A stretch of 46,805 bases of DNA from Bacillota bacterium (GTDB taxonomy: Bacteria > Bacillota > Clostridia > Peptostreptococcales > Acidaminobacteraceae). The stretch's first letter is position 1, and the number at the start of each line of letters is the position of its first letter. The DNA lies in contig JAGXHV010000086.1 of NCBI GenBank assembly GCA_024636005.1, forward strand, positions 1-46,805. The letters run 5' to 3'. The notes beneath the pieces were generated by a model. The model was not told the origin of the DNA. It did not search any database and saw nothing but the letters and a program-made list of their open reading frames with translations. A program made the translations under genes and the position numbers. Below, piece after piece: positions 1-31,601 of this stretch.

Positions 1-75
1 CATCACTCCAATTTTAGCGGTATAGGTTCTTCTCAAATCCTTAACTGAAATAACAGGATATGTATTTGACAACAT
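1..75 (-). CDS. ABC transporter ATP-binding protein, N-terminus only (runs off the window)
   Basis: Only the first 25 codons lie in the window. They begin at an ATG preceded by a GAGGTG ribosome site and read as a typical ABC ATPase first strand (residues 9-20, VISVKDLRRTYT). The Walker motifs are beyond the edge, so the family call rests on this short segment and on context. It follows an ArsR-type regulator on the same strand and has its own strong promoter with repeat elements just upstream. An efflux or ABC-2-type exporter controlled by the neighbouring regulator is the likely role, which is inference. Confidence 0.55.
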   Translation of the reverse strand, partial: MLSNTYPVISVKDLRRTYTAKIGVM

Positions 76-95
76 AGAGCACCTCACTTTTTATA

Positions 96-154
96 TTAGA
101 TATACATCTTATTAGATACACGTCTAATATAACTATTATTTCACTTTATGTCAA
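96..154 (-). promoter_or_regulatory. Promoter of the ABC exporter gene with two 14-bp direct repeats
   Basis: On the minus strand a perfect TTGACA (154-149) is followed by 17 bp and TATATT (131-126). Just downstream of the -10 lie two near-identical 14-bp units, TTAGATACACGTCT (112-125) and TTAGATATACATCT (96-109, top-strand reading), two mismatches apart and offset by 16 bp. They cover the transcription start and leader, where a repressor would block initiation. The adjacent ArsR-type regulator is the obvious candidate, but its own upstream palindrome is a different sequence. Confidence 0.7.
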
Positions 155-177
155 TAGTACAAAAGTAAATTTAACAA

Positions 178-204
178 TAAAAAAACTCTCCAGATTGGAG
201 AGTT
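178..204 (-). terminator. Intrinsic terminator after the ArsR-type regulator
   Basis: An 8-bp stem (AACTCTCC/GGAGAGTT, 184-191 with 197-204) with a 5-nt loop is followed on the minus strand by a run of T. It touches the stop codon of the regulator at 204-206 and separates it from the ABC gene. Confidence 0.8.
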
Positions 205-1205
205 TATTTTTCTTTGACGTACCTTGTGACATCGTCGAGTTTTCGACTTAAAAGTGTATAGTTCGTACTGAAATATTTGATTTGTTTAACCTTTTCAACG
301 TTCACCAAACCCTGTTGATTTAGAGCGTCTAGGTGATGTGAAACCGTTGGGGTTGTAAGGTTCAGAGCGTCTGAGATTTCTTTCCCATACATCGGATGCA
401 TGTAAAGCATCCTAAGTATTTTTAGCCGTGTGGCATCCGAGATGCTCTTAAGTGGGTCAAGAATGCTATCCAAATGTTCTTCAGGATTTCTCTTCACCTT
501 TTGAAGACCTTGTATATAAATCATGGTCTGATCGTCCATCAATCTCATGGAAAATGGACTGACATAATATACTGGTATAAACTCATAGTTCACATAATCC
601 GCAATATTCCAAAATGGTTTTCCCATCAATTCTTGTGCAAACGACAATGGATGTCTATCTGTTGTCCCCTCTGAAAAGGTCTTAAGAAGTTCATCGTATG
701 AAGCTGCTTGAACAAGCTCATCAAACTTTTTATTGAATGCTTCGTGCCCATCAAGAACATGTAAAACCTCACAGAACAAATCCATTACTTTAGGGAACGA
801 GGAGATCAGTTCAACAAGACTATCATCGAACCCCCACTGTTTAGCATATATTTCCACTTCTGCATTTGAAGATAAAAATCTGCTTGCATCAAGTTCATCA
901 ATCTCATGTTCAAGAAAAAAAACCAATTGTCTCTCTGAGGAACAACTTCTAATATCACGTATTAAACCATCAATGTGATCCCTCTCCATTGAAACCAAAG
1001 CAAACTCCAACCAAGTAAAACGCTTATTGGGTAGTTTTTTAAGCAGCTCAAAAAAAGAGATGTAATTTGACTTTAAGTCATCGTATTCACTAAATTCATG
1101 TATTGCTTCATGATGAGAAGTATGACCTAGAGCACACAACAAAGATAGAGCTTCAATCACACGACTGTATTGAATTTTGAGCTGATGCTTGAAACTTACC
1201 TTCAT
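204..1205 (-). CDS. ArsR-type winged-helix regulator with a large N-terminal domain
   Basis: This 333-residue protein has a C-terminal winged helix of ArsR/HTH_20 type (about residues 250-333). It shows the DATRLKILRML helix and a recognition region TTPTVSHHLDALNQQGL. The first 240 residues form a long helical domain, as in ArsR-like regulators with a DUF5937-type N-terminus; that comparison is from memory. The start chosen is the ATG at 1203-1205, which has GGAGG seven bases upstream, rather than an extended frame to 1370 without a ribosome site. The 16-bp palindrome between 1218 and 1233 just ahead suggests autoregulation. It probably controls the ABC exporter that follows. The last full gene pair of the window (an MFS exporter with a similar regulator) has the same logic. 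No metal-binding Cys pattern is evident, so the ligand is unknown. Confidence 0.75.
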   Translation of the reverse strand: MKVSFKHQLKIQYSRVIEALSLLCALGHTSHHEAIHEFSEYDDLKSNYISFFELLKKLPNKRFTWLEFALVSMERDHIDGLIRDIRSCSSERQLVFFLEHEIDELDASRFLSSNAEVEIYAKQWGFDDSLVELISSFPKVMDLFCEVLHVLDGHEAFNKKFDELVQAASYDELLKTFSEGTTDRHPLSFAQELMGKPFWNIADYVNYEFIPVYYVSPFSMRLMDDQTMIYIQGLQKVKRNPEEHLDSILDPLKSISDATRLKILRMLYMHPMYGKEISDALNLTTPTVSHHLDALNQQGLVNVEKVKQIKYFSTNYTLLSRKLDDVTRYVKEK

Positions 1206-1217
1206 ATTAACCTCCAG

Positions 1218-1233
1218 TATGAGATATCTCATA
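1218..1233. promoter_or_regulatory. Perfect 16-bp palindrome ahead of the ArsR-type gene (candidate operator)
   Basis: TATGAGATATCTCATA is a perfect inverted repeat ending 12 bases before the start codon of the regulator and just upstream of its ribosome site. A dimeric winged-helix protein would bind such a site, so autoregulation is the simplest reading. No strong promoter hexamers could be assigned with confidence nearby. Confidence 0.6.
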
Positions 1234-1349
1234 TATAGTTTATCACAAATTGCATATACTGATGTTGGAAATATTTGAGGAGGCACCATCATCAGTTTTA
1301 TTCTACTCTCATTTTCCATGAGTAAAGTGAGAAAATGGAGGGAACTTTC

Positions 1350-1381
1350 AAAAAAATAAAAAGACGCCAAATGTTGACGTC
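1350..1381 (-). terminator. Terminator of the sugar-acid operon
   Basis: A 6-bp stem (GACGTC pairing with GGCGTC through one G-U pair, 1363-1381) with a 7-nt loop is followed on the minus strand by a run of about 13 bases that is nearly all T (1350-1362). It lies just beyond the aldolase stop codon and ends the operon before the ArsR-type gene. Confidence 0.85.
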
Positions 1382-1391
1382 ACTTAATTAA

Positions 1392-2150
1392 CTAATCATT
1401 AAATTGATCTACAACTTCTTTAAATTTATCATAAATCATACCCATATCCACTGAATAGGAAATGTACTTCACACCATGTGCTCTCCATTTTTTAGCAGCA
1501 ATATCATTATCCACAAAAGTACCTACAGATTTTCCTTTTTTTAGAGCTTTGTTTACAACGGATTTCATCAATTCTTCAACATGTGGATGATCAACTTGTC
1601 CAGAAAGCCCAACGGATTGGGATAAATCGTAGGGTCCAATAAAAACAACATCAATTTCTTCAACTTCTAAAATATCATCTATGTTCTCCACACCTTCTAT
1701 TCCTTCGATGTGTATAATGATCATGGTCTTATCATTTGCTGATTCAAAGTAACTGTTTCTCTCTTTGCTACTATAATCAGCCGCTCGAACAAATCTGCAA
1801 ACACCTCTTTCACCGATTGGTGAAAACTTTGAAGCTTTTACTACTGCCTCTGCATCAGCTCTACAGCTTATTTGAGGAACTTGAACACCTGCAGCACCAA
1901 TATCAAGTGCTCTTGATATTAATGAAGGGTTATTTTCAGAAACCCTAACGATCGCAGTCAAACCTCTAGATTCAGCAGCCCGTATCAGGTTCTGAGCTGT
2001 AAGCATATCGAGTGGTCCATGTTCACAATCAATAATAACAAAATCAAAGCCAGACAAAGCAATCAATTCAATTATTGCTGGATCGGGTGATTTAACGAAT
2101 GGTCCTATAACAGCATTATCCTTGTTCATCTTTGACATAATTGTTTCCAT
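1392..2150 (-). CDS. HpcH/HpaI-type class II pyruvate aldolase
   Basis: The 252-residue protein belongs to the HpcH/HpaI aldolase family. These are metal-dependent enzymes that split 2-keto-3-deoxy acids into pyruvate and an aldehyde. Visible landmarks are DCEHG (E43, H44), R69, E149 in HIEGIEG and D175 in FIGPYDLS, matching the His, Arg and the Glu/Asp metal ligands of E. coli HpaI. The family's usual Gln two residues before the metal Glu is His147 here, which is unusual. The start has GAGGAG eight bases upstream. It is the last gene of the operon after dgoD, so the expected substrate is the 2-keto-3-deoxy sugar acid made by the dehydratases. No sugar-acid kinase is encoded nearby, which fits cleavage of the unphosphorylated acid. 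Exact substrate is inferred. Confidence 0.85.
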   Translation of the reverse strand: METIMSKMNKDNAVIGPFVKSPDPAIIELIALSGFDFVIIDCEHGPLDMLTAQNLIRAAESRGLTAIVRVSENNPSLISRALDIGAAGVQVPQISCRADAEAVVKASKFSPIGERGVCRFVRAADYSSKERNSYFESANDKTMIIIHIEGIEGVENIDDILEVEEIDVVFIGPYDLSQSVGLSGQVDHPHVEELMKSVVNKALKKGKSVGTFVDNDIAAKKWRAHGVKYISYSVDMGMIYDKFKEVVDQFND

Positions 2151-2171
2151 AAGCGTTCTCCTCTGTTATCG

Positions 2172-3320
2172 TTACCATTCAGCAACACTACCGTCTTCGT
2201 GTCTCCAAATGGGATTCTTCCAATTATGACTTTCTTTGCTGGCTTGAATGACTCTTTCCTCATTTATTTCTATACCGAGTCCTGATCCCTTGGGAATATC
2301 CACAAACCCATTCTCATATTTAAAGACTTCCGGGTCCACTAAATAATCTAAAATATCATTTCCTTTATTGTAATGAATCCCTAGACTTTGCTCTTGAATA
2401 AAAGCATTGTGGCTAACTGCATCCAATTGAAGACATGCAGCAAGAGCAATCGGTCCTAAAGGACAATGTGGGGCAATTGCCACATCATAAGCTTCAGCCA
2501 TCGTTGCGATCTTACGACACTCTGTTATTCCACCCGCATGTGATAGGTCCGGTTGCAAAATATCTACATAACCACCAGATAATATATTCTTAAAATCCCA
2601 TCTGCTGTATAATCTTTCACCAATTGCGATTGGGGTAGCAGTATAATTAGCAATTTCCTTTAAAGCTTCTAAATTTTCTGAAAGCACCGGTTCTTCAATA
2701 AACATTAATCTATAAGGATCAATTGCCTTTGCGAGCACTTTTGCCATAGGCTTGTGAACTCTTCCATGGAAATCAATTCCAATCCCAAAGTTATTGCCAA
2801 CTGCTCTTCTAATAGCCTCTAGACGCTCAACAACAGCATCAACTTTTTCATAGGAATCAATATATTGCAATTCTTCAGTCGCATTCATTTTAATGGCTGA
2901 AAATCCTTGTGCTTTTTTCTCTAAAACTGCTTTTGCAACATCATCCGGTCTGTCTCCACCGATCCATGAGTAAACTTTAATTTTATTTCGAACAGCGCCT
3001 CCAAGGAGTTCATGCACCGGTGCATTGTGGTATTTACCCTTGATATCCCACAGAGCTTGATCAATTCCAGATATTGCACTCATCAGAATTGGCCCCCCTC
3101 TGTAAAAACCGCCTCTATAAAGAACTTGCCAATGATCTTCAATGTGTAGGGGGTCTTTTCCAATCAAATATTGCATTAATTCTTCAACTGCAGTCTTTAC
3201 CGTATGAGCTCTACCTTCTATAACAGGTTCTCCCCATCCGAAAATGCCCTCATCTGTTTCAATCTTCAGAAATAGCCATCGAGGAGGTACCTGATAGAGT
3301 TTAAAATTTGTGATTTTCAA
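2172..3320 (-). CDS. dgoD: D-galactonate dehydratase (enolase superfamily)
   Basis: It dehydrates D-galactonate to 2-dehydro-3-deoxy-D-galactonate. The protein aligns by eye along its whole length with E. coli DgoD, including [10 protein letters not shown] near the N-terminus, [12 protein letters not shown], the DFHGR metal and catalytic segment, [25 protein letters not shown] with the second catalytic His, and the final [11 protein letters not shown]. The start chosen is TTG at 3318-3320: GGAGG lies seven bases before it and the resulting 382 residues equal the E. coli length. An in-frame ATG at 3350 lies inside the preceding gene. The ribosome site begins right after the stop codon of the upstream dehydratase, so the two are tightly coupled. 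This is the best substrate clue in the cluster. Confidence 0.93.
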
Positions 3321-3333
3321 GTCTAAACCTCCA

Positions 3334-5052
3334 TTATTCCATGTATGCACCTTTGATTGGTGACACTGCGAGTTTGCAATATATACTTAAAATGCCTTTT
3401 TTTACTTTTGTTATTGGATTGACCCAGTTCTCTTTTCTAATGTTCAAAATTTCAGTGATTTCTTGAGGTGACTTTTCCACACCTGCAACACCAATGATAT
3501 CAATTGTACGATTCGGGATATCAATTCTAATCAAATCATCTTTTTCGACCAGAGCAATCGGACCACCCGATACGGCTTCTGGAGATACATGCCCTATAGC
3601 TGGACCTCTGGTTGCGCCGGAATAACGACCATCTGTAATCAAAGCCACAGATGATACAAGTTCAGGATTGGACGCGATTGCCTCAGTAGTATAAAACATC
3701 TCTGGCATTCCTGATCCTTTTGGCCCTTCATATCTAATAAATACCGCATGACCTGGCTTAACAGTCCCATTCATCACTGCTTCCAATGCTTCTTCTTCAG
3801 AATTAAATGGCAATGCACTTAAAGTGACTGTCATCATTTCATTAGCTACTGCAGAATGCTTAATAACGGATCCTTCTGGAGCGAGATTCCCTTTAAGTAT
3901 TGCAATAGCTCCTTCTTTATGAATTGGCTTATGATACTGGTATATGACATCAGACCGTTTCATATTGTACTTTTCCATCATGATCTCGGATTTTTCAAAG
4001 TAACCATTCGCTCTTAAATCAGCCAAATTCTCACCAAGCGTCTTTCCAGTTACAGTCATCACATCCAAATGCAAATGCTCTTTGATCTCTTCCATGACTG
4101 CTGGAACACCTCCTGCATACCAAAAATATTCCGCAGGGTATTTTCCACTCGGTCTAACGTTTGCCAGATAAGGTATGCGTCTATGAATTTCATCAAATAA
4201 ATCAGGAGTGATTTCAATGTCTACTTCATGTGCGATCGCAGGTATATGAAGCAATGCATTGGTAGATCCTGCAATTGCAGCATGTACCATGATTGCATTC
4301 TCAAATGCTTCGTAAGTTAAAATATCCGAAGAAGTAATATTTTGTTTTACAAGTTCTAAAAGTTGTTCACCTGCATCTGCAGAAATATCGAGAATTTCTT
4401 CAAAAGTCGCAGGGATTAAAGCCGTTCCAGGAAGTGCTAATCCCAAGGCCTCAGCCATAACTTGCATCGTTGCTGCTGTACCCATAAATGCACAGGCTCC
4501 ACAAGTAGGACAAGCATTATGTTGTTTTTCTTTAAACTCCGTTTCAGTGATTTCTCCACGCCCTAACAAAGCACTATAAGTACCTATTTGTTCAAGTGTA
4601 AGAAGATCTGGACCCGCTTTCATGACCCCCCCTGTTACTATTATTGAAGGCATATTCAATCTGGCTATGGCTTTTAGGTGAGCTGGGACACCTTTGTCAC
4701 AACTGCAAATATATAATCCGCCATCAAAAGGAGTAGCAGTAGCTTGTATTTCAATCATATTTGCTATCATTTCTCGAGAAAGCAGGGAATAATTCATCCC
4801 ATCATGTCCCTGTGCAATCCCATCACAAATATCTGTAGTAGTGTATTTTGCAGGTTTAGCACCCAAAGATAAAATTCTTTCCTCAGCAGATTTGACAAGT
4901 TTATCTAAATGTACACTTCCAGGATGACTGTCTCCCCAAGTGCTTTGTAAAAATATTTGAGTTTTTCCCAAATCGGAAACAGTCCAACCCATTCCCATTT
5001 TCAATGCATCCATTTCAACTGCTACTGAACGCATTTTTTGACTTTTTAACAT
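3334..5052 (-). CDS. IlvD/Edd-family Fe-S dehydratase, probably for a sugar acid
   Basis: The 572-residue protein belongs to the dihydroxy-acid / phosphogluconate / sugar-acid dehydratase family. Conserved segments include [73 protein letters not shown] and [22 protein letters not shown]. The cysteines in the first three fit an iron-sulfur cluster and its surroundings. The N-terminal [14 protein letters not shown] differs from ordinary IlvD. Among known groups it recalls sugar-acid members such as the YjhG/YagF branch, but I cannot place it firmly. The start at 5052 has GGAGG five bases ahead; in-frame codons at 5064 and 5067 overlap that site. It sits between the TRAP permease and dgoD, so a hexonate or pentonate is the expected substrate rather than branched-chain amino-acid synthesis. 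Confidence 0.8.
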
Positions 5053-5077
5053 TGGATCCTCCATCAATTTATTTTCA

Positions 5078-6355
5078 TTATCTCAACATATTTGGAATCC
5101 AAAGCACCAATTGTGGGAACAAGACAATGAGTATCAACACTGCAACTTGAGTTGCCAAAAATGGCAGCATTGCTTTAGTTATCCGTTCAAGTGATATCTT
5201 TGCGATTCCACATGAAATATATAAAATGGTACCAACTGGCGGCGTCACCAACCCAATTCCAAGATTAATGACCATCATTACACCAAAAAATACTGGATCT
5301 ATTCCAACTGCAAGAGCTACTGGTAGTAAAACTGGACCAAGTATTAGAAGAGCTGGAGTAAGATCCATTACACTTCCCACAAGCAATAAGAAAAAATTAA
5401 CAATTAATAATACGATTAAAGGATTATCTGAAATGGATAGAATCGTAGTCGCTATGGATTGTGGTATTCTAACAACCGTCAATAACCATGCTACAACCAT
5501 AGCTGTACCCGCAACAAGCATAACGATTCCAGTGGTTTTTGCTGTATCAATCAATATTTTAGGCAAGTCGGTCATTTTTAATTCTTTATAAACAAATAAC
5601 GAAACAACTAATGCATATACGACTGCTATTACAGCCGCCTCAGTAGGCGTGAAATAACCTGATATAATACCTCCGATAATGATCACCGGTAATAAGATCG
5701 CCCAAAACGATTCCATCAATGATTTAAAAACTCTTCTTATTGAAAAATTTTCTCCTCTTGGGTAGTTTCTCTTTTTGGATATCGCATATGTTAAGAACAA
5801 TAATGAAAATCCGATTAAGATTCCAGGGATTATTCCCCCTAAAAACATTCTAACAACCGAAACCCCACTGATAAGACCAAATAAAATCATAGGAATACTT
5901 GGTGGTATAACGATTCCCATTGTTGATGAAGATGCAGTTACAGCAGCTGCAAAATCAGCATCGTAACCCTCATCAGTCATTGCAGGGATAAGCAGTCCAC
6001 CTATTGCGGCGGTGTCTGCAACAGACGATCCGGATATACCCCCAAAAAACATACTGGCTACAATATTTACAAGTCCAAGTCCACCCGTTATATGACCCAC
6101 CAATGAATTGGACAGTTGAATAATACGCTTAGCTATTCCACCTGTATTCATAATTTCTCCAGCGAGCATAAAAAAAGGTACCGCCAATAGTGGGAAACTA
6201 TCGATACCACCAACCATCTTTTGTACCAAGATATCAAATCCAAATCCTTGGAGTGCCATCATGACTAGAGCGGCTAATCCTAAGCAAAATGCTACTGGTA
6301 CTCCAATCAATAGAAAACCAAATAGTGCGGATATAAATATTAATAGCATTTCCAT
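5078..6355 (-). CDS. dctM: TRAP transporter large permease (DctM family)
   Basis: The 425-residue protein has about 12 hydrophobic segments and the length normal for TRAP large subunits. Family signatures include FPLLAVPFFMLAGEIMN (about residue 53), GGISGSSVADTAAIG (about 105), the segment around ASSSTMGIVIPPSIPMI (about 142) and GLVTPPVGTILY near the C-terminus. It carries out sodium-driven uptake of organic or sugar acids together with the DctP and DctQ partners. Its ATG overlaps the DctQ stop codon (TAATG), so the two are translationally coupled. It is followed 26 bases later by the sugar-acid dehydratase gene, which supports a sugar acid as cargo. Confidence 0.93.
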   Translation of the reverse strand: MEMLLIFISALFGFLLIGVPVAFCLGLAALVMMALQGFGFDILVQKMVGGIDSFPLLAVPFFMLAGEIMNTGGIAKRIIQLSNSLVGHITGGLGLVNIVASMFFGGISGSSVADTAAIGGLLIPAMTDEGYDADFAAAVTASSSTMGIVIPPSIPMILFGLISGVSVVRMFLGGIIPGILIGFSLLFLTYAISKKRNYPRGENFSIRRVFKSLMESFWAILLPVIIIGGIISGYFTPTEAAVIAVVYALVVSLFVYKELKMTDLPKILIDTAKTTGIVMLVAGTAMVVAWLLTVVRIPQSIATTILSISDNPLIVLLIVNFFLLLVGSVMDLTPALLILGPVLLPVALAVGIDPVFFGVMMVINLGIGLVTPPVGTILYISCGIAKISLERITKAMLPFLATQVAVLILIVLFPQLVLWIPNMLR

Positions 6356-6894
6356 TATGCATTCCCCCCTTGCTTGGTTTGTTTATGTTGATCGTATAAT
6401 TTCATGGTACATTTGATTAAATGTTCCAAAGCTATCAGAATCATTATATATCCAGCCACCAACACAGGAAGATATTTTATAGATGAAGGCAACCCTAAAG
6501 CAGGAGTTCGTGCTGTTTTAACAACATTGACTATGCTGTGTCCTCCTATGATCATCGCCCTATTGACAACAATCACCAATGTCCAAGAAATCATTTCAAA
6601 TATCGTTTGTACTCTTGGCTTCATTCGATCAGTCAATATATTTAAGCCTAAATGTTCCTCATAATACAGCCCAAGTATCGCACCTGAGAAAACCAACCAA
6701 ATAAAAAGTATTCTACTGGACTCTTCAGCCCATGCAATAGATGAATTTATAAGATTTCTGCTTAACACCGCATAAAAAACTATGCAAACCATTACTGCCA
6801 AATTTCCTGCCATAGCAAATTTGACAAGAACAACCAACCATTTATTGATTATCCCAATACCCTTTGGTATGAGTGATAATTTTTCCACCACCAT
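6355..6894 (-). CDS. dctQ: TRAP transporter small permease (DctQ family)
   Basis: The 179-residue protein has four hydrophobic segments and the conserved NSSIAWAEESSRILFIWLVF motif of DctQ near residues 52-71. It joins the large permease to form the membrane part of a TRAP importer. The ATG at 6894 has GAGG four bases upstream, but GGAGG is only one base away, so GTG at 6888 with seven-base spacing is an equally good start. It lies after an inter-gene hairpin that follows the binding-protein gene and ends in a one-base overlap with the large permease. Confidence 0.88.
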   Translation of the reverse strand: MVVEKLSLIPKGIGIINKWLVVLVKFAMAGNLAVMVCIVFYAVLSRNLINSSIAWAEESSRILFIWLVFSGAILGLYYEEHLGLNILTDRMKPRVQTIFEMISWTLVIVVNRAMIIGGHSIVNVVKTARTPALGLPSSIKYLPVLVAGYIMILIALEHLIKCTMKLYDQHKQTKQGGNA

Positions 6895-6914
6895 GCCTCC
6901 TCAATGTTTAGAGT

Positions 6915-6945
6915 AAAAAAGGAGTTTATAGATAAACTCCTTTTT
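6915..6945 (-). terminator. Hairpin with T-tract between dctP and dctQ (partial terminator)
   Basis: An 8-bp perfect stem (GGAGTTTA/TAAACTCC, 6921-6928 with 6933-6940) with a 4-nt loop is flanked by A and T runs on both sides. It lies inside the operon, right after the dctP stop codon, with no new promoter recognised behind it. It would let most transcripts end after the binding protein and some continue into the permeases, a common way to make excess binding protein. Confidence 0.75.
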
Positions 6946-6966
6946 AATGATTATAGTCAATTTTAA

Positions 6967-8031
6967 TTATTTTGACGCTTCTGTTAATTTTTCAATTTCT
7001 TCGAGGACTTTTTCAACATATTCTGCGCCAATTTCGTCCTTGAATTTTTCAATTGTTGGTTTAGTTGCATCTTGGAACAACTTTAGTTCATCCATTGTTA
7101 ACTCAGAAACCGTCATTCCTTTTTCTCTTAATCCGCCAACCAATTCAGCTGTATATTCTCTATTGATTCTTCTTTCTTCATCTCTTGCAACAATCGCACC
7201 TTCTTGAACGATTTCTTGAAGATCAGCTGGCAAACCATCCCAGAATATTTTACTCATCAACAATACAAATGGGCTATAAACGTGACCAGTCAAAGAAGTG
7301 TACTTCTGAACTTCTGGATAATTTTGAAGATATATGGTCGGTACAGGGTTTTCTTGACCATCAACTACACCTTGTTGCATGGCTGTAAACAGCTCTCCAA
7401 AAGGCATTGGCGTTGGATTTGCTCCAAGTGCTCTAAAAAAGTCCAAGTGAACCTGATTTTCCATTGTTCTGATTTTGAGACCTTCCATGTCAGCTGGCGT
7501 TCTTACCTCTCTAACATTATTGGTTAAATGACGATAGCCATTTTCCCAGTATGCCAATCCAATAAGTCCGTGCTCAGCCAATCCATCTAATAATTCTTGA
7601 CCCAATTCGCCATCCAATAAATCTGAAGCGATTTCTTCTGTTGGGAATAAGAAAGGTAAATCGAAAATCATAAATCTCTTGTCAATAGAAGAGACAGGTG
7701 CTGAAGATGGAGCAGTAATTTCTTGACTTCCAAGCTGTAATGATTCCATCATTTGAATGTCATCACCCAATTGGCTACTGTGGAATAATTGCATTTCAAT
7801 TCTTCCGTTACTTTCTCTTTCAACGTACTCTTTCATGACTTCCAATCCCTTATATTGTGGATGTTGATCATTTAACCCAATACCCGCTCTGATGACAAAA
7901 GTCTCTTCAGATGATGCTGTTGTATCTGCAGGACTTTCATTGCTTGATACATTTGCAGGTGCACTGCTACACCCTACCATTAACATCGCACTAATTAAAA
8001 TTAGTGCAACTACTTTCTTGATGTTTCCCAT
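6967..8031 (-). CDS. dctP: TRAP transporter solute-binding lipoprotein (DctP family)
   Basis: The 354-residue protein starts with a lipoprotein signal (hydrophobic residues 7-19 and lipobox VGC with Cys21), followed by a Ser/Thr/Ala linker. The mature part has the DctP pattern, including NDQHPQYKGLEVMKEYV, the LKIRTMENQVHLDFFRALGA segment with its conserved substrate-carboxylate Arg, and PMPFGELFTAMQQGVVDGQENP. It would catch the acid substrate outside the membrane and deliver it to DctQM. GGGGG nine bases before the ATG is the ribosome site. A short hairpin (8065-8080) lies between it and the dehydrogenase gene upstream. Substrate is inferred from the adjacent galactonate dehydratase. Confidence 0.93.
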   Translation of the reverse strand: MGNIKKVVALILISAMLMVGCSSAPANVSSNESPADTTASSEETFVIRAGIGLNDQHPQYKGLEVMKEYVERESNGRIEMQLFHSSQLGDDIQMMESLQLGSQEITAPSSAPVSSIDKRFMIFDLPFLFPTEEIASDLLDGELGQELLDGLAEHGLIGLAYWENGYRHLTNNVREVRTPADMEGLKIRTMENQVHLDFFRALGANPTPMPFGELFTAMQQGVVDGQENPVPTIYLQNYPEVQKYTSLTGHVYSPFVLLMSKIFWDGLPADLQEIVQEGAIVARDEERRINREYTAELVGGLREKGMTVSELTMDELKLFQDATKPTIEKFKDEIGAEYVEKVLEEIEKLTEASK

Positions 8032-8064
8032 TGATGTGGTCCCCCTTATTAGTTTTTATAATAG

Positions 8065-8080
8065 CTTTGATCGCTCAAAG
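8065..8080 (-). other. Small hairpin between the dehydrogenase gene and dctP
   Basis: CTTTGA and TCAAAG form a 6-bp stem with a 4-nt loop just after the dehydrogenase stop codon. The bases that follow on the minus strand are not a clean T-run, so an RNA processing or stability element is as likely as termination. Confidence 0.35.
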
Positions 8081-8083
8081 TTA

Positions 8084-9166
8084 CTAACTCGTCTTCAATA
8101 CCTCAAGCCTTTGCATTGCATCAAATATCATATCTTCTGTAACTCGATATGGTGTTTTTAGCATATCTGGTGCATTTGCCGCTTTTTCGAGTACATTTTT
8201 TAAGTAGTCCCTATCATTTTTCACTTCTAAATCAACAAGTGATGTAGGAAGATCAATAGTTTTATAAAATTCAATCAACTGTGAGAGATCGTTTAGATTA
8301 CCGTCTATTGAAAGAAGTATTAATATGCCATAAGCCACCACTTCGCCATGTAAGTGCCTTTTTTCAATTTCTTCCAAAAGTGTAAATCCATAAAACATGC
8401 CATGAGCTATGGAACCATTATTTTCTTGACCAATCAACATGCTAACCAAACCAGTAGTGATTATATTGTTTAGAATTATTTGTTCAACTTCATATGAAGG
8501 AATTTTATTATCACTGTCTTCCAAAGCTTTTCGACCATATTGGATCAATGGATTTTTACATAAGATACTTAGAGACTTGGCCATGGATGCACTGTGTGAA
8601 AGTATTTTATCTCTACTGGCCAACTCAACCTCATAATACTTAGCAAGTGTATCGCCTATCCCTGCCCACAGATAACGTGTTGGGGCATCTGCTATTACTG
8701 CAGTATCCATTACAATGTGAACTGGAGGAGAATTCAAATCAAGTAGTGAATCAAAATCTCCATTTTCATTATAGATAATTGAAAGAGGTGTTGTCGCAGC
8801 ACATGTAGCTGCAATGGTTGGTACAGTTATGATTGGAACTTCAGTAAAATGAGCAGCAGCTTTGGCTGTGTCCAGTGCTTTTCCACCACCAACTCCGATA
8901 ATCATATCAATCCCGTTTTTTTTCACAACATCCACAATTTTTTGAATATTATTGCTATTGCATTCGCCTCCATACCACATGAAATCCAAACAACTGATTT
9001 CATGATCATGGAAAACCTTTTCGAGATCATTTTCTACTTTTTCCAAAGCCGTTTTGCCGCCCACCACCAGAATATAATTCCCAATCTTCTTAACTTCAGA
9101 GCCTATTCTTTTTAGTGCATCAGAGCCAATAGTATAATTAGGAAAAATAACTTGGTTCAAAACCAT
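8084..9166 (-). CDS. GldA-like iron-containing alcohol (polyol) dehydrogenase
   Basis: The 360-residue protein is of the glycerol-dehydrogenase-like branch of metal-dependent alcohol dehydrogenases. The N-terminal half holds the NAD-binding GVGGGKALDTAKA motif (about residues 90-102) and VPTIAATCAATTPLS. The C-terminal half holds the metal ligands, an Asp in AGIGDTLAKYYE, a His in IAHGMFYGF and a His in RHLHGEVVAYG. The start at 9166 has GGAGG five bases upstream; an in-frame ATG at 9178 is part of that site. It follows the GntR regulator by 15 bases in one operon. It could reduce the aldehyde released by the aldolase, or oxidise a sugar alcohol or acid feeding the dehydratases. The real substrate cannot be told. 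Confidence 0.82.
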   Translation of the reverse strand: MVLNQVIFPNYTIGSDALKRIGSEVKKIGNYILVVGGKTALEKVENDLEKVFHDHEISCLDFMWYGGECNSNNIQKIVDVVKKNGIDMIIGVGGGKALDTAKAAAHFTEVPIITVPTIAATCAATTPLSIIYNENGDFDSLLDLNSPPVHIVMDTAVIADAPTRYLWAGIGDTLAKYYEVELASRDKILSHSASMAKSLSILCKNPLIQYGRKALEDSDNKIPSYEVEQIILNNIITTGLVSMLIGQENNGSIAHGMFYGFTLLEEIEKRHLHGEVVAYGILILLSIDGNLNDLSQLIEFYKTIDLPTSLVDLEVKNDRDYLKNVLEKAANAPDMLKTPYRVTEDMIFDAMQRLEVLKTS

Positions 9167-9181
9167 AAAAACCTCCATGTT

Positions 9182-9883
9182 TCATTTTCTTTCAATATCT
9201 TCTTCTTTAATTTTTATGATATCTTCTCTAGTTCTACTGACATGTCTCGTCATGAACAATCTTGCCAATTCAACGTCTCTGTTCTTTATTGCTTCAAGAA
9301 TTTTTTTGTGCTCTTCCAAACCTTTTGATGGTCCAAGATATCTATTCAATTCCTTTTGTTGGTGTTTCCAGATATCTGTCAATATACTGTTGACTTTTAT
9401 AACCAGTGAATTTTTAGTGCCTTTCGCAATCTCAATATGAAATTGATGATCGGCATTTGCAAATTCTTCAGAATTGTCACTGTTCTCAAACATTATCTTA
9501 TAGCAGTTTTCTAAAGCTATAATAGTTTCATCATCGCAACGCTCTGCACAAAGTGCTGCGCTATTGCCTTCGATGAGTACTCTAAATTCAACAACATCAA
9601 TTAAGTTGTCCTTATTAAGCATCATCATTGGTATTAATCCATTAATGTACATCGAAGGTGATAATTCATTGACAAATGTGCCTTCCCCTTGACGCTTGGT
9701 AAGGATGCTGAGAGCTACCATTTTCTCAATTGCTTCCCTAACAGACATTCGACTTACACCCAATTCAGTTGACAACTGATTCTCAGATGTAATTTTCATA
9801 CCTGCAACCCATTCTTGGTTGATTATTTTCTCTTCTATCGCCTGATAGACAATTTCACTTGTGTTCCGTTTCTTTTTTTCCAT
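9182..9883 (-). CDS. GntR-family regulator, FadR/FCD subfamily
   Basis: The 233-residue protein has an N-terminal winged helix (about residues 10-75, with the SENQLSTELGVSRMSVREAIEKM recognition region) and a C-terminal FCD ligand domain. FCD metal-ligand residues are visible as the Asp and His in NADHQFHIEIA and later His residues in EEHKKI and TRHVS. The start at 9883 is preceded by GGGAG ten bases away; an in-frame codon at 9904 and an ATG at 9892 lie at or inside that site. Upstream are three TTGTCnGACAA sites, which fit the known FadR-type consensus TnGTnnnACnA. It is therefore the likely local repressor, relieved by a sugar-acid intermediate. Confidence 0.9.
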   Translation of the reverse strand: MEKKKRNTSEIVYQAIEEKIINQEWVAGMKITSENQLSTELGVSRMSVREAIEKMVALSILTKRQGEGTFVNELSPSMYINGLIPMMMLNKDNLIDVVEFRVLIEGNSAALCAERCDDETIIALENCYKIMFENSDNSEEFANADHQFHIEIAKGTKNSLVIKVNSILTDIWKHQQKELNRYLGPSKGLEEHKKILEAIKNRDVELARLFMTRHVSRTREDIIKIKEEDIERK

Positions 9884-9924
9884 TGTTATCATTCTCCCAG
9901 TCATAATAGTGGTTTCATGTTTCT

Positions 9925-9971
9925 ATTATGCTTATAATAACGTTTTATTGTCAATGACTTGTCTGACAATT
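9925..9971 (-). promoter_or_regulatory. Proximal GntR promoter with operator site 1
   Basis: TTGACA (9954-9949) and CATAAT (9930-9925) are 18 bp apart on the minus strand. Directly upstream of the -35 lies ACTTGTCTGACAATT (9957-9971), a FadR-type half-perfect palindrome. Binding there would touch the -35 edge. Confidence 0.65.
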
Positions 9972-10007
9972 ACTTGTTTAATTTTAGTAATATAATAAAT
10001 ATTGGAC

Positions 10008-10022
10008 ACTTGTCCGACAAGT
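10008..10022. promoter_or_regulatory. GntR operator site 2, perfect palindrome
   Basis: ACTTGTCCGACAAGT is a perfect 15-bp palindrome around a central C and the strongest of the three sites. Its left part on the minus strand (TTGTCG) sits 17 bp from a TATTAT, so it may also overlie the -35 of a weaker promoter (10020-9992). Its centre is 51 bp from that of site 1 and 129 bp from that of site 3. Confidence 0.75.
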
Positions 10023-10136
10023 TGTGTGCGAGTATATATGTTTCATATGCGTTTAAGCACCGAATTTACATCTAAAAACAACTAAATTGCCGTTATTCTG
10101 ATTATTGTTTACAAAACATTAACATTCATATTAATC

Positions 10137-10192
10137 AGTCGTCCGACAAGTGACTACATCTTGATTATAAAGATTGATTTTAATCATGTCAA
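10137..10192 (-). promoter_or_regulatory. Consensus promoter of the sugar-acid operon with operator site 3
   Basis: The minus strand carries a perfect TTGACA (10192-10187), 17 bp and a perfect TATAAT (10169-10164). The operator AGTCGTCCGACAAGT (10137-10151) starts about a dozen bases beyond the -10, over the transcription start, the standard place for repression. Transcripts would have a leader of about 270 bases that crosses operators 2 and 1. The rest of the gene-free stretch from 9884 to 10246 shows no open frame worth reporting. Confidence 0.8.
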
Positions 10193-10246
10193 CTCTAAAT
10201 TGCTTAGTTTTTTGTACATTTTTGTTTTTTTGTCCCGCCTCCTCGA

Positions 10247-11920
10247 TTAATCTCTTGATTTGATTATTGCACCTTCAGATGCGGACAATACATTTTGACG
10301 ATAATTATACAAACACCCAGTCGCCCGCCTCTTAATTTTCTCGCAACCAATGATTTTCCTTGCATCAAAATCAACACTTGGCGCTTCAATCACTCCATTT
10401 AAGACATCCACAATGATTTCATCACCATTCTCAAGATATCGGATTGGGCCGTCATCATATGCTTCTGGACAAATATGGCCAACAAAGCAACCATTGTTTG
10501 AACCAGAGAATCTACCATCGGTAATAACACATACATCTTTACCAAGATCCATGCCCACTAAAAGCTTCATCGCCTTATACATTTCCGGCATTCCCGGTCC
10601 TCCTTTAGGACCTTCATTTCTAATCACAACAACTTGCCCACTTTTAACCAGAAGATTTCTAATGCCTTCCAAAGCGTCTTCTTCACTTTCAAAAACGACT
10701 GCACTTCCCTTAAAAAACAATGCTTCATCTGGAATTGCTGAGGGTTTAGTCACCGAACCATCAGGTGCAATGTTTCCTTTAAGCACTGCTATTCCAGGTC
10801 TAGTATGAACTGGATTATTCAATTTTCTTATTATGTTTTCATCCTTCATCTCAATAGTCGATAGATTATCTTTTATAGTTCTCTTCGTACAAGTCAACAC
10901 ATCCATATTCAAAACAGATTCCAAAGATGACATTACCACAGGTACTCCACCGGATTCATAAAAGTCAAGCAATGTGAATTCTCCTGCTGGAATCAAAGGA
11001 ACCAAATGAGGGATACCTTTGCTTGTCTCATCAATATCAGACAAACTCAAGTCCACTTCAGCTTCGTAAGCAATTGCTAAAAGATGTAGTACCGCATTTG
11101 TTGATCCTCCTATAGCTGAATTGACTCTAATCGCATTGAATAGCGACTCTTTGTTGATGATATCTCTAGCGCTAATTCCATGATCGATCAACCCCATGAC
11201 TGCTTTACCGGTTTCATAAGCCATTGCCATTCTTTTGCTGTATACAGCTGGAATTGCAGCACTACCAGGCAAGGACATTCCCATGGCTTCAGATAGACAG
11301 GCCATAGTATTTGCAGTTCCAAGCATTGCGCATGAGCCTATAGTAGGAACCGCATTATTTTCAATCCAATCAAATTCCTTTTCACTAATCAATCCTGATT
11401 TTAGTGCTCCTTCGGATTGTTGAATGATTGAGTGATCAATATATTCTCCACCATATGGATTGTTTTTCATTCGTCCTGGTAAAGTTGGTCCTCCGTTGAT
11501 CAATATCGAGGGAATATTGATGCGTGCGGCTCCCATCAACATCCCAGGAATAATTTTATCGCAAGATCCAACCAACACAATTCCATCCAATCGATGCGCT
11601 TCCACCATAGCTTCAACGTCATTGGCAATCATTTCTCTTGTTGGAAGTACGTATTTCATGCCAACATGGCCCATAGCGATTCCGTCACAAGCGCCAATTG
11701 TGCCAAACTCAACAGCCATACCACCACTAGCGACAATCCCCTCTTTTACTCGTTCTGAAACCACTCTTAAATTTACATGACCCGGGCATATTGAGTTGAA
11801 AGCATTTACAATGCCTACTATTGGCTTTGATATTTCATCATCGGTGAATCCACTCGATTTGAACAACGCCCTCACATTTGCCCATTCAGGTCCATTCAAA
11901 ATTTCCTTACTTCTCTTCAT
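10247..11920 (-). CDS. IlvD/Edd-family Fe-S dehydratase (second copy)
   Basis: The 557-residue protein has the full family pattern: SICPGHVNL near residue 40, IGACDGIAMGHVGM, GSCDKIIPGMLMGAAR, TIGSCAMLGTANTM, AIGGSTNAVLHLL, LKGNIAPDGSVTKPSA, GPKGGPGMPEMYKAM and ITDGRFSGSNNGCFVGHICPEA. It is closer to ordinary dihydroxy-acid dehydratase in length and motifs than the copy at 3334, but carries extra cysteines at the first two motifs. The start at 11920 has AAGGGG six bases ahead; an extended frame to 11980 would begin upstream of the promoter -10, so it is excluded. Its position next to the GntR gene argues for a sugar-acid role, but a biosynthetic ilvD role cannot be ruled out since no other ilv genes are in the window. 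Confidence 0.82.
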   Translation of the reverse strand: MKRSKEILNGPEWANVRALFKSSGFTDDEISKPIVGIVNAFNSICPGHVNLRVVSERVKEGIVASGGMAVEFGTIGACDGIAMGHVGMKYVLPTREMIANDVEAMVEAHRLDGIVLVGSCDKIIPGMLMGAARINIPSILINGGPTLPGRMKNNPYGGEYIDHSIIQQSEGALKSGLISEKEFDWIENNAVPTIGSCAMLGTANTMACLSEAMGMSLPGSAAIPAVYSKRMAMAYETGKAVMGLIDHGISARDIINKESLFNAIRVNSAIGGSTNAVLHLLAIAYEAEVDLSLSDIDETSKGIPHLVPLIPAGEFTLLDFYESGGVPVVMSSLESVLNMDVLTCTKRTIKDNLSTIEMKDENIIRKLNNPVHTRPGIAVLKGNIAPDGSVTKPSAIPDEALFFKGSAVVFESEEDALEGIRNLLVKSGQVVVIRNEGPKGGPGMPEMYKAMKLLVGMDLGKDVCVITDGRFSGSNNGCFVGHICPEAYDDGPIRYLENGDEIIVDVLNGVIEAPSVDFDARKIIGCEKIKRRATGCLYNYRQNVLSASEGAIIKSRD

Positions 11921-11964
11921 AGTTTTCCCCTTCGTTTTCATCTGTAATTTAAGATCATGTTGCA

Positions 11965-11994
11965 ATGATAACTTAATCATTTCAAAACTGTCAA
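11965..11994 (-). promoter_or_regulatory. Promoter of the second IlvD/Edd-type gene
   Basis: TTGACA (11994-11989), 18 bp, TATCAT (11970-11965) on the minus strand, giving a leader of about 38 bases. No TTGTCnGACAA operator is seen here, so this gene may be controlled apart from the rest of the cluster. Confidence 0.7.
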
Positions 11995-12026
11995 TTATAT
12001 CTTTATATCTTGGAATTGATTACACA

Positions 12027-12059
12027 AAAATAGACACCTCCAATTTCGGTGTCTATTTT
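12027..12059. terminator. Bidirectional-looking terminator after the alpha/beta hydrolase gene
   Basis: A perfect 12-bp stem (AAAATAGACACC/GGTGTCTATTTT) with a 9-nt loop lies just beyond the hydrolase stop codon and separates it from the sugar-acid cluster. Confidence 0.85.
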
Positions 12060-12064
12060 GTAGT

Positions 12065-13051
12065 CTACATCTCAGATAAAAACTCATTCGTATACTTTTT
12101 AATCGTATCCGATTGTGTCTGATAGATCCTATGTGATCCTTCGATTATTTTATAAGACGCGTTTTTTCCCAATCGATTCAAGTGTGCTGTTTGATATCCC
12201 ATGCCATCGTCCTTGTTTTTCTTTCCCATGGCTTTAAGAGTATTTGATGCAATCAGTTTAAGAACCGGGACCGTTTCAGGGAATTTCAAATTCATGACTT
12301 CTTCAATATTGTCACCAAACAGCATGGCTTGATTTATAACTGTATCATTGCCTCCAAAATAAGTGAATAATAAATAGTCAGCTTGTTCTTTTTCAGTGTA
12401 ACCATTTTCAATCAATTTGGTCTCAGGAACCAACTTAGATACCAAACGAGAAAAACCAGTGGCTTGCTGTACCTTCCCAAGAGAATAAACAAAACTAGGG
12501 ACTTTGACGGATTCTAGTTCTGCGCTAGAAGTAGTATCAAGCATGATTATCGCTTCAACTTCTTCTGGATATTGAGTAGCATAATACTCAGCATAAATAC
12601 CAGAAGCAGAATGTGGCATCAAAACATATGGTGGATTCAATCCCGATTTTTTTAGAGCTTCTCTCAGTTCACTTATGTAATTCTCATTGGTTCTCGCTTG
12701 ATCCGATACATCGCTGAATCCAATACCAAAGTACTCCACTGCCACCACTTTATAATCACTTTTCAGTGTTCTCATCAGTGGTCCAAAATCAGCAGTTGGA
12801 AGTGCAATTCCAAGTCCAGGCATTAGTACAATTGTTTTTTCTCCAGCGCCTTCTTTGTAGACATGCATTTTTTTACCATCTACTTCAACCATCTCTCCAT
12901 AAGGTTTCAATTGATCCAACTCTTTCGTTCCTCTGATTTGTGTTACTGCAAATCCAGCAATGTTCAACGCTACAACAACCCCAAATAACACCAATAGAAT
13001 CGACATAATTTTTCTCCCTTTAGATTTAGCTTTAGATTTTTTAGTTCTCAT
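12065..13051 (-). CDS. Membrane-anchored alpha/beta hydrolase
   Basis: The 328-residue protein has a Lys-rich N-terminus, one membrane segment (about residues 16-35) and an alpha/beta-hydrolase domain outside. Visible parts are the oxyanion region VLMPGLG, the elbow MPHSASGIYAEYY with the probable catalytic Ser, the segment around VPVLKLIAS before the acid, and a late His in EGSHRIYQTQS. The elbow is PHSAS rather than the usual GxSxG, an oddity that keeps the Ser. GGAGAG six bases before the ATG overlaps the stop of the regulator gene ahead, so the two form one operon. Substrate is unknown; esterase or lipase-like activity at the cell surface is a reasonable guess. Confidence 0.8.
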   Translation of the reverse strand: MRTKKSKAKSKGRKIMSILLVLFGVVVALNIAGFAVTQIRGTKELDQLKPYGEMVEVDGKKMHVYKEGAGEKTIVLMPGLGIALPTADFGPLMRTLKSDYKVVAVEYFGIGFSDVSDQARTNENYISELREALKKSGLNPPYVLMPHSASGIYAEYYATQYPEEVEAIIMLDTTSSAELESVKVPSFVYSLGKVQQATGFSRLVSKLVPETKLIENGYTEKEQADYLLFTYFGGNDTVINQAMLFGDNIEEVMNLKFPETVPVLKLIASNTLKAMGKKNKDDGMGYQTAHLNRLGKNASYKIIEGSHRIYQTQSDTIKKYTNEFLSEM

Positions 13052-13603: not shown

Positions 13604-13647
13604 GTTCCATTTGTGGATATAATACCACTTATGGAACAAGTCGTCAA
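13604..13647 (-). promoter_or_regulatory. Promoter with a 34-bp inverted repeat (candidate operator)
   Basis: TTGACG (13647-13642), 17 bp, TATTAT (13624-13619) on the minus strand. An inverted repeat with 13-bp arms (13604-13616 and 13625-13637; outer GTTCCAT/ATGGAAC, inner GTGG/CCAC, two mismatches) wraps the spacer and the -10. A dimer or pair of dimers binding here would block polymerase. Confidence 0.78.
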
Positions 13648-25452: not shown

Positions 25453-26910
25453 CTATGCAAAATAAGGTTCCAAATATCGGTACAAACTTTGATATTTTTT
25501 GTGTTTGTCGAGATAGATGGCTACATTATAAGAATCTGGCTTAGTAGCATCAACAGTCTGAATCATTACTTTTGTGGCTTCATAGACGTTTTCATAGATG
25601 CCTTCACCTACAGCAGCAAGTATAGCAGCCCCAAGTGCACCACCTTGATTGGTGTTGATGCCCACAATTTCATGTCCGAAAACATCAGCAATGATTTGAC
25701 GCCATTTTTGGCTTTTTGCACCACCGCCAATAACCCTTATTTCGTTCACAGGAACACCCATATCTTTGAGGATGTCCAGTGAATCTTTAAGTCCAAAAGC
25801 TACTCCTTCGAGTACCGCTTTTGTCATATCTCCTCGACCACTGTTCATATCCATTCCGATAAAAGTGCCTCTGGCATTTGGATTGGCATATGGAGTTCTT
25901 TCTCCCATCAAATATGGAAGAAAGATCACATCTGAGATTTGATTGTCCACCTCAATTAGCAAATTGTCTATGGACTCCTTGGATACTTCATCTGACCACC
26001 ATTTAAGACTGCTTGCAGCCGACAACATGACCCCCATGGAATGATACTTGCCACTCGCATGGCAAAATGCATGAAGCCTATTTTCAGAATCCATCCTATA
26101 ATCATCATGAGCCGCAAAGACCACACCGGATGTGCCTAAGGTCACTGAAACTACGCCTTCACCGACTGTTCCTGTACCTATTGCACCAGCCGCCTGGTCA
26201 CCAGCACCAGCCACTATGATAACGTCTTGTGAAAGTCCTAAAATCGCTTTGATCTCATCTGAAAGATTCCCTGTTACCGCAAAGGATTCATGCAGTTTAG
26301 GCAATTGTTTTTCAGTGATTCCGATAAATTCAAGCATAGGTTTAGAGTAGCATTTATTTTGAACGTCAAGTAGCAACATACCTGATGCATCGGAATAATC
26401 TGTGGCATAAATCCCAGACAATTTGTAGTTAATGAAATCTTTTGGGAGTAGGTACATGTCCACCTTTTGAAAGATCTCAGGATGATGCTTTTTAAGCCAA
26501 AGTATTTTCGGAGCGGTGAATCCGGTGAGGGCTTTGTTCCCTACCAGTTCACCAAGTTTCTTCATCCCAAAATGCTTTGTGATATCAATGCATTCATCTG
26601 AGGTTCTTTGATCACACCATAAGATGGCTGGAGTAAGAACTTCACCCCGGTCATCCAATGCGACCATACCATGCATCTGCCCACTGAATCCAATCCCTCT
26701 AATATCATCTTTGATATTTTTATTTGCATCAATCAGTTTCTTCAGTGCAGTAAGTGTCCCCTGCCACCAATCTTCTGGATTTTGTTCCGCCCAATTGGTG
26801 TGGGGATAATACACGGGGTATTCTTCAGTAGCTTCATCGATTATTTTACCAGTCCCCGTGATCAGCAGGACCTTGATAGAAGAAGTACCAAGATCTATTC
26901 CAATATACAT
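25453..26910 (-). CDS. xylB: Xylulokinase
   Basis: The 485-residue FGGY kinase phosphorylates D-xylulose to xylulose 5-phosphate for the pentose phosphate pathway. It starts with the ATP-site strand GIDLGTSSIKVLL, has the sugar-site segment GFSGQMHGMVALD (about residues 73-85), LWCDQRT, and the C-terminal RVIGGGAKSQKWRQIIADVF with the second phosphate loop. Length is normal for XylB. The ATG lies two bases after the xylA stop, with CAGGAG inside the end of xylA, so translation is coupled. Confidence 0.96.
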   Translation of the reverse strand: MYIGIDLGTSSIKVLLITGTGKIIDEATEEYPVYYPHTNWAEQNPEDWWQGTLTALKKLIDANKNIKDDIRGIGFSGQMHGMVALDDRGEVLTPAILWCDQRTSDECIDITKHFGMKKLGELVGNKALTGFTAPKILWLKKHHPEIFQKVDMYLLPKDFINYKLSGIYATDYSDASGMLLLDVQNKCYSKPMLEFIGITEKQLPKLHESFAVTGNLSDEIKAILGLSQDVIIVAGAGDQAAGAIGTGTVGEGVVSVTLGTSGVVFAAHDDYRMDSENRLHAFCHASGKYHSMGVMLSAASSLKWWSDEVSKESIDNLLIEVDNQISDVIFLPYLMGERTPYANPNARGTFIGMDMNSGRGDMTKAVLEGVAFGLKDSLDILKDMGVPVNEIRVIGGGAKSQKWRQIIADVFGHEIVGINTNQGGALGAAILAAVGEGIYENVYEATKVMIQTVDATKPDSYNVAIYLDKHKKYQSLYRYLEPYFA

Positions 26911-26912
26911 AG

Positions 26913-28226: not shown

Positions 28227-28250
28227 AATGTCCTCCTCAATAATTAAGCT

Positions 28251-29099: not shown

Positions 29100-29100
29100 A

Positions 29101-30078: not shown

Positions 30079-30101
30079 CTTCCACTCACCTCCATAAAGA
30101 T

Positions 30102-30144: not shown

Positions 30145-30156
30145 CACCCGTTTCTT

Positions 30157-31539: not shown

Positions 31540-31601
31540 TGTCTTCCCCCTAATCTTTTAATCATGGTTTATGTAAACTTATGATAGCACAAGTTTGCAT
31601 A

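Follow-up and report, generated by a model that had tools for sequence, protein, structure and literature searches.

How a bacterial gene cluster with several sugar-acid dehydratases, and with no kinase and no phospho-aldolase gene inside it (1392-11980), could complete the breakdown of its substrates is the question raised by the 46,805-nucleotide stretch analysed here. This stretch, referred to below as the window, is the entire contig C109 of the host genome G000 (2.54 Mb, 174 contigs, 77% complete), a member of the Acidaminobacteraceae in the phylum Bacillota. On its minus strand, genes are transcribed in the order IlvD1, GntR, GldA-like, DctP, DctQ, DctM, IlvD2, DgoD and HpaI; open reading frames (ORFs) and family profiles bear out the inventory of the original prediction, which had listed DgoD, two IlvD/Edd-type dehydratases, a tripartite ATP-independent periplasmic (TRAP) importer, a GldA-like dehydrogenase, an HpaI-type aldolase and a GntR regulator, and also the reported lack of a kinase and a phospho-aldolase in the cluster. 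We propose, with a probability of about two in three, that the locus is a GntR-controlled, TRAP-importing operon in which HpaI splits unphosphorylated 2-keto-3-deoxy acids, replacing kinase and phospho-aldolase.

In the proposed pathway, the TRAP transporter would import sugar acids under GntR control, after which DgoD would dehydrate D-galactonate, and IlvD2 an epimer, most likely D-gluconate, to the respective 2-keto-3-deoxy acids. The class II aldolase HpaI would split unphosphorylated 2-keto-3-deoxygalactonate, and probably also 2-keto-3-deoxygluconate, into pyruvate and D-glyceraldehyde, which general enzymes of the cell would either phosphorylate (by a triokinase-like Dak) or oxidise and then phosphorylate (by way of glycerate and a glycerate kinase). 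We infer the cleavage of the unphosphorylated acid from the exchange of genes in one slot of related modules, from conserved residues of HpaI, and from the precedent of AbHpaI, the class II aldolase of Acinetobacter baumannii.

The slot after DgoD in sister modules

Searching 393 genomes of the order with the GldA-like protein returned 14 places in 13 genomes, all of whose neighbourhoods were scanned with marker profiles and most of which were also read ORF by ORF. Eight of the 14 are modules of the form GntR-GldA-TRAP-IlvD2, and what follows IlvD2 differs between them: DgoD-HpaI in three (the window, G080 and G088, the latter two from another family than the host), DgoD-Eda-DgoK in two (G133 and G100, both with Eda and DgoK confirmed against Pfam, and with an additional Eda-KdgK following in G100), Eda-KdgK without DgoD in two (G006 and G136), and in one (G052) an unrelated glycosyltransferase and no pathway gene. 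A related arrangement, IlvD2-DgoD-DgoK-Eda-IlvD1, occurs in G044, with the TRAP genes farther away, and another IlvD-DgoD locus, in a metagenome-assembled genome of the Clostridia (L082), has Eda and KdgK on its other side. In all six IlvD2-DgoD pairs of this kind, DgoD is followed by HpaI or else by DgoK together with Eda, and HpaI lies directly 3' of DgoD in all three modules that carry it. Because the sister modules hold Eda and DgoK in the slot after DgoD, this pattern supports the view that HpaI stands in for the kinase and phospho-aldolase.

The trees place this exchange among close relatives. The IlvD2 sequences of the three HpaI modules form one clade (support 96/97), beside copies from KdgK/Eda modules, and the DgoD sequences group as {window, {G133, {G088, G080}}} (97/94; inner fork 93/86), with the DgoK-bearing G133 nested among the HpaI modules. 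As the IlvD2 of G133 falls in another branch, apart from the grouping of its DgoD, the modules are mosaic.

In three relatives, a mannonate dehydratase precedes the module (L246, 29-1078; L038, 1287-3988; L247, 3785-6680), scoring over its cut-off in L246 and L038 and identified by visual inspection in L247; beside it, L038 and L247 encode an oxidoreductase with a distant, sub-cut-off resemblance to fructuronate reductase. The breakdown of hexuronates and that of aldonates thus seem to be connected in these relatives.

Kinases and phospho-aldolases in the host genome

The families that would be needed for a phosphorylative route were sought in G000 and three congeners that are 96-98% complete. 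DgoK (PF05035) was found in none of the four, and neither was the 2-keto-3-deoxy-6-phosphogluconate/galactonate (KDPG/KDPGal) aldolase (PF01081). Thus none of the four host-genus genomes, with completeness between 77 and 98%, has PF01081, which is present in 7/7 others that had been chosen for their related modules; DgoK is found in one of those same 11 genomes. Three PfkB kinases are encoded in G000, of which one is a ribokinase and one a 1-phosphofructokinase, both above NCBIfam cut-offs; the remaining one comes closest to fructokinase, with 178 bits where the cut-off is 450, and reaches 80 bits with the 2-keto-3-deoxygluconate/galactonate (KDG/KDGal) kinase model, whose cut-off is 400. Against our KDG-kinase profile these kinases reach 47-110 bits and the KdgK-like genes in L037-L045 reach 369-475 bits, so that by profile and NCBIfam no PfkB of the 77% complete G000 is KdgK-like and no clear KdgK was found.

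We considered and dismissed two further candidates for a kinase. One is an overlooked gene inside the cluster, where all operon-strand ORFs of at least 100 residues in 1392-11980 are accounted for; the other is the FGGY kinase at 25453-26910, which has a xylose-isomerase-type protein and ABC permeases as its neighbours. A dgoK/dgoA pair elsewhere in the genome, which the original prediction had put forward as its own hazard, was not found within the 77% complete G000. Its central claim, that HpaI takes the place of kinase and phospho-aldolase, is supported by the slot exchange, the lack of both families in 4/4 genus genomes examined and the AbHpaI precedent.

The operon itself was not seen in the three congeners, which gave no HpaI match at 1e-40 and no GldA-like match at 1e-80; IlvD2 matches there reach 42% identity in two, with none at 1e-60 in the third. 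From this, and from the absence of PF01081 in the genus genomes examined, it seems that a lineage lacking KDPG-type aldolases has acquired the operon. For the proposed glyceraldehyde step, homologues of both glycerate kinase (PF02595) and Dak1 are present in G000; the search covered these two families.

The HpaI-type aldolase

The product of the last gene (1392-2150, minus strand) belongs to the HpcH/HpaI class II pyruvate aldolases by its match to PF03328 (123 bits) and by its metal and substrate residues. Its residues E43, H44, R69, E149 and D175 correspond to Glu46, His47, Arg72, Glu151 and Asp177 of AbHpaI, as read from the aligned ranges without a residue-level alignment to the structure 7et8, and are invariant in 9/9 aligned sequences. 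An extra residue near R119 is found in five of the nine, is absent from the four more distant ones, and probably sits in the loop that matches the aldehyde-contacting loop of AbHpaI. The predicted model (predicted local distance difference test, pLDDT, 89.5) superposes on solved HpaI-class aldolases (ranks 1-24) with Z scores of 30.7-32.5 and root-mean-square deviations of 2.3-2.6 over about 240-250 residues, a resemblance that would indicate a common fold and proves no function. AbHpaI is reported to cleave unphosphorylated (4R)-2-keto-3-deoxygalactonate, and the gluconate epimer less well, to pyruvate and D-glyceraldehyde (PMC8560999).

Among 37 HpaI matches, the neighbourhoods of 18 were scanned, some of them over short stretches. 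An IlvD2-like dehydratase lies within 2.5 kb of HpaI in all five top-scoring neighbourhoods, and any IlvD in 0/13 of the others. Because two of these five (G047 and G151) combine HpaI and an IlvD2-like gene with no DgoD in the fetched stretch, products of IlvD2 are suggested to be substrates of HpaI as well. The cluster in G151 (L163, 6094-15902) holds an HpaI homologue (56%) together with a GntP-like permease, an IlvD2-like dehydratase, an FAA hydrolase, an aminotransferase, and a glycyl-radical enzyme with its radical-SAM partner.

Dehydratases and the GldA-like enzyme

DgoD (2172-3350, minus strand), an enolase-superfamily D-galactonate dehydratase, is the firmest enzyme call of the locus, with 706 bits to the NCBIfam galactonate dehydratase model NF010624 (cut-off 311) and 3rr1 as its best PDB sequence match (382 residues aligned). 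The assignments of the two IlvD/Edd-family proteins, IlvD2 (3334-5067, minus strand; PF00920/PF24877) and IlvD1 (10247-11980, minus strand), are less direct. At 543.5 and 605.3 bits, respectively, both score under the TIGR00110 dihydroxy-acid dehydratase cut-off of 618, IlvD1 narrowly, and a third, higher-scoring IlvD is encoded on contig C69 of G000; we therefore rejected either as the housekeeping dihydroxy-acid dehydratase.

With IlvD2 as query against 99 genomes, matches of at least 50% identity were found in 17 places, including the window, and the other 16 were fetched. Members of the IlvD2 subfamily adjoin KdgK and Eda (G006, G136, G056, G043 and G054) or GntP-like permeases that score below the curated cut-off (G080 and G151). 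Because of these neighbours, IlvD2 is most likely a gluconate dehydratase, in line with the same function predicted for an IlvD of clostridia that is encoded next to a gluconate symporter (PMC4179846). G080 has a second IlvD2-like cluster (L051, 8283-12636), where the dehydratase is flanked by an aldolase of the dihydrodipicolinate synthase (DHDPS) family on one side and a GntP-like permease on the other, and a GntR regulator is also present; judging from its gene content, this is a possible second non-phosphorylative gluconate route.

In characterised members of the IlvD/Edd family, the iron-sulphur cluster is bound by three cysteines. In all 17 IlvD2-type dehydratases aligned (the window protein and its 16 homologues), a histidine replaces the first of these. 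Cysteines 81, 123, 186 and 192 are fully kept in this alignment; at the replaced position IlvD1 keeps the cysteine and the C69 IlvD has a valine. The IlvD2-type dehydratases may possibly carry a different type of cluster.

The GldA-like iron-type alcohol dehydrogenase (8084-9178, minus strand; PF00465) had been suggested as a possible reductase of the aldehyde released by the aldolase, an assignment that the comparison does not support. Five of the eight modules have no HpaI, yet all five retain the gene, and in four of the five it accompanies Eda/KdgK or Eda/DgoK; moreover, its score of 268 bits lies below the glycerol dehydrogenase cut-off (NF006941, 336). As the Eda/kinase route frees no glyceraldehyde, reduction of free glyceraldehyde cannot, judging from this distribution, be the enzyme's shared role; it probably acts upstream of the dehydratases, and we propose a hydroxy- or keto-acid reductase. 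GldA-like genes with 53-57% identity to that of the window stand near a class I/II aminotransferase in 4/4 places (L249, L250, L251 and L252), with a Gate-type membrane protein in three and a lactate-racemase-like gene in one. These neighbours hint at an amino-, hydroxy- or keto-acid role for such enzymes without naming the substrate.

Regulation and extent of the operon

The GntR/FCD regulator (9182-9904, minus strand; PF00392 and PF07729) is preceded by a gap of 343 bases that separates it from IlvD1 and contains the only 12/12 promoter-like site in positions 1-13000 of the window, a sigma-70-like sequence with a spacer of 17 (10192-10164, minus strand). One of three 11/12 sites lies at 9954-9925. 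With 48 promoter-like sites in these 13,000 positions against 44.9 by chance, only the location and perfect match of the site at 10192-10164 count. All three operator-like inverted repeats fall within the same gap: repeat 1 (10137-10151) just downstream of this site and with one core mismatch, repeat 2 at 10008-10022, and repeat 3 (9957-9971) adjoining the site at 9954-9925. At up to one mismatch, the operator core occurs three times in the window against 2.5 in shuffled sequences, 50 of 100 of which reach three, so that its clustering in one gap is noteworthy and its number ordinary. The 15-base form, at up to three mismatches and with palindromes counted on both strands, gives seven rows against 1.08 in shuffles, one of 100 of which reaches seven; beyond repeats 1-3, its sole match in the window is at 13627-13641, with three mismatches.

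The loose core TTGTNNNACAA occurs in the window also at 4340 and 44954. In the 400 nt preceding GntR (342 nt in the window), it is found perfectly in 7/8 modules, and G080, the remaining one, has it with one mismatch, compared with a background of 0.034 perfect sites per 400 nt over seven fetched loci, those sites included; it was not found in the one region upstream of GntR scanned in a cluster of a different type (G056). The GntR/FCD protein probably represses the operon locally.

With the promoter-like site and repeats 5' of GntR and a terminator-like hairpin (1381-1363, minus strand) 3' of HpaI, the operon most likely comprises GntR, GldA-like, DctP, DctQ, DctM, IlvD2, DgoD and HpaI (9904 to 1392). 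The hairpin, one of eight such sites found where 6.5 are expected by chance, probably closes it. An ArsR-like gene beyond it (204-1370) was rejected as an operon member, as the hairpin intervenes and no counterpart was seen in the sister modules.

IlvD1 appears from this layout to stand outside the operon, upstream of its promoter-like site, and no operator-like repeat was found in the 123-nt stretch upstream of it. The original prediction of three dehydratases feeding one aldolase is accordingly reduced to two in the operon. IlvD1 is a possible member of the same regulon: in G100 and G136, a homologue divergent from GntR shares the repeat-bearing intergenic region, and in G052 an adjacent divergent homologue has an upstream stretch without repeats. 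Its longest reading begins at 11980; since a promoter-like -10 element lies at 11970-11965, the true start is suggested to be slightly downstream, near the 11920 of the original prediction.

Weight of the evidence and alternative explanations

Several observations weigh against non-phosphorylative cleavage by HpaI. The window protein stays under all three relevant NCBIfam cut-offs (HpaI 169/369, GarL 165/407 and RhmA 135/441 bits), and AbHpaI is reported to favour condensation over cleavage about 40-fold (PMC8560999). By family searches, Dak1 is present in G080 without PF02595, and both are missing from G088, so that what becomes of glyceraldehyde must differ across the HpaI modules. Two surveys of DgoD loci did not show the arrangement either: HpaI is near DgoD in none of the best 80 of at least 571 loci from named genomes, and in none of the 22 loci that a search of 391 genomes of the class yielded from 20 other genomes. 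Near DgoD, the former have Eda in 40, DgoK in 13 (five of them weak, at 63-85 bits) and KdgK in 23, and the latter Eda in 12; no kinase or aldolase marker at all was found in 38 of the 80 and 10 of the 22. The 38 may include misses, as the DgoK, Eda and KdgK profiles were built on sequences of Bacillota and gave no match in almost all of the Pseudomonadota loci. Such frequent marker-less loci mean that a DgoD locus lacking a kinase says little by itself, and the HpaI version is rare, with three genomes so far.

Such marker-less loci also speak for a phosphorylative pathway whose unlinked kinase and KDPG-type aldolase are encoded elsewhere, with HpaI in a side role. Either gene could lie outside the 77% assembly of G000, one of whose PfkB kinases stays below every cut-off and is not formally named. 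Moreover, in G088 an Eda and two genes resembling KDG/KDGal kinases, both of these under curated cut-offs, lie some 1-4 kb upstream of the module's GntR, and in G080 an Eda lies about 35 kb from the module, so that HpaI need not be the sole route there. We nevertheless consider this explanation unlikely, as PF01081 is missing from all four genus genomes, including the three nearly complete ones, two of the PfkB kinases are named otherwise and the third falls far short of the KDG/KDGal kinase cut-off, and HpaI immediately follows DgoD in every module that has it. Somewhat less probable still is that HpaI cleaves another acid (a 2-keto-3-deoxy pentonate, a deoxyhexonate or an aldarate product) supplied by IlvD2, IlvD1 or a DgoD acting on something other than galactonate, for instance D-fuconate or L-arabinonate, to give glycolaldehyde, lactaldehyde or tartronate semialdehyde. 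The near equality of its GarL and HpaI scores, the additional RhmA match, the many aldehydes that HpaI-class enzymes are described as accepting (PMC7610986), and the closeness of DctP to a solute-binding protein with a solved complex whose ligand name starts with D-f would fit such a role; the DgoD score far above the galactonate dehydratase cut-off and the presence in sister modules of DgoK, a galactonate-pathway kinase family, argue against it. That the homologue is biosynthetic rather than catabolic, like the citrate synthase SbnG, whose structure 4tv5 is its top PDB sequence match, is highly improbable, given 35% identity only in the structural alignment, siderophore families in 0/10 proteins scanned over 204-11980, and the position of the gene inside a sugar-acid operon in three genomes.

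The importer and neighbouring genes

The TRAP transporter is complete by family profiles, with the large permease subunit DctM (5078-6355; TIGR00786, 487 bits, cut-off 268), the small permease subunit DctQ (6355-6894; PF04290) and the solute-binding protein DctP (6967-8031; TIGR00787), all on the minus strand. By sequence and fold, the nearest solved chains to DctP (model pLDDT 74.6) are 4p47 and 7bbr, the latter titled sugar acid binding protein. Farther along the window, a second sugar island (25453-40669) encodes the FGGY kinase, xylose-isomerase-like protein and ABC permeases mentioned above as well as GH3, aldose epimerase, LacI, ROK, GH1 and a MalK-type ATPase; it is followed by a protein of 1127 residues with several PAS domains, GGDEF and EAL (40952-44335).

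Relation to known pathways and implications

With the De Ley-Doudoroff pathway of D-galactonate breakdown the operon shares DgoD, a GntR/FCD-type regulator and a dedicated importer, and the sister modules of G133, G100 and G044 unite DgoD, DgoK and Eda. The window differs in its HpaI and TRAP importer, and since DgoK and DgoA/Eda, two defining enzymes, were sought and found neither in the operon nor in the genome, it is no member of that pathway as defined. In Sulfolobus, the aldolase of the non-phosphorylative Entner-Doudoroff route is a class I enzyme of the DHDPS family. The window aldolase is instead a metal-dependent HpaI-class enzyme in a bacterial operon with a TRAP importer, while the proposed logic of two epimeric acids and one aldolase, yielding pyruvate and D-glyceraldehyde, resembles the archaeal route as outlined in PMC12076931. 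The aldonate dehydratase that a pathway of this type requires is predicted here by the family cut-off that DgoD exceeds. AbHpaI has its family, fold and the five named residues in common with the window HpaI; it differs in its own pathway, 4-hydroxyphenylacetate breakdown, and has about 28% identity in the structural alignment. The clostridial semi-phosphorylative gluconate route (gluconate dehydratase, KdgK and Eda), predicted for example for Clostridium acetobutylicum CA_C3604 (PMC4179846), likewise places an IlvD-type dehydratase beside a sugar-acid importer; several relatives add Eda and KdgK to it, whereas the window operon lacks both. Judged by its genes, the operon thus looks like a De Ley-Doudoroff-like bacterial build that would work like the archaeal non-phosphorylative route with a different class of aldolase. 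In the literature searched, open PMC papers only, no HpaI-class aldolase in a galactonate operon is reported.

A more far-reaching version, to which we would give slightly under even odds, is that of a portable, self-contained and fully non-phosphorylative operon in which HpaI has displaced both DgoK-DgoA and KdgK-Eda, and a dehydrogenase of new function feeds aldonates to the two dehydratases. Such an operon would let an anaerobe of a genus without KDPG-type aldolase use galactonate and gluconate.

If our reading is true, the operon would give a physiological role to the cleavage of 2-keto-3-deoxygalactonate seen in vitro for one HpaI-class enzyme. The sister operons, of the same order up to DgoD and then with either kinase and phospho-aldolase or a single class II aldolase, would amount to an experiment of nature in which bacteria have exchanged sugar-acid breakdown with phosphorylation for breakdown without it, or the reverse, and a genome without DgoK and Eda need not be one that is unable to use galactonate.

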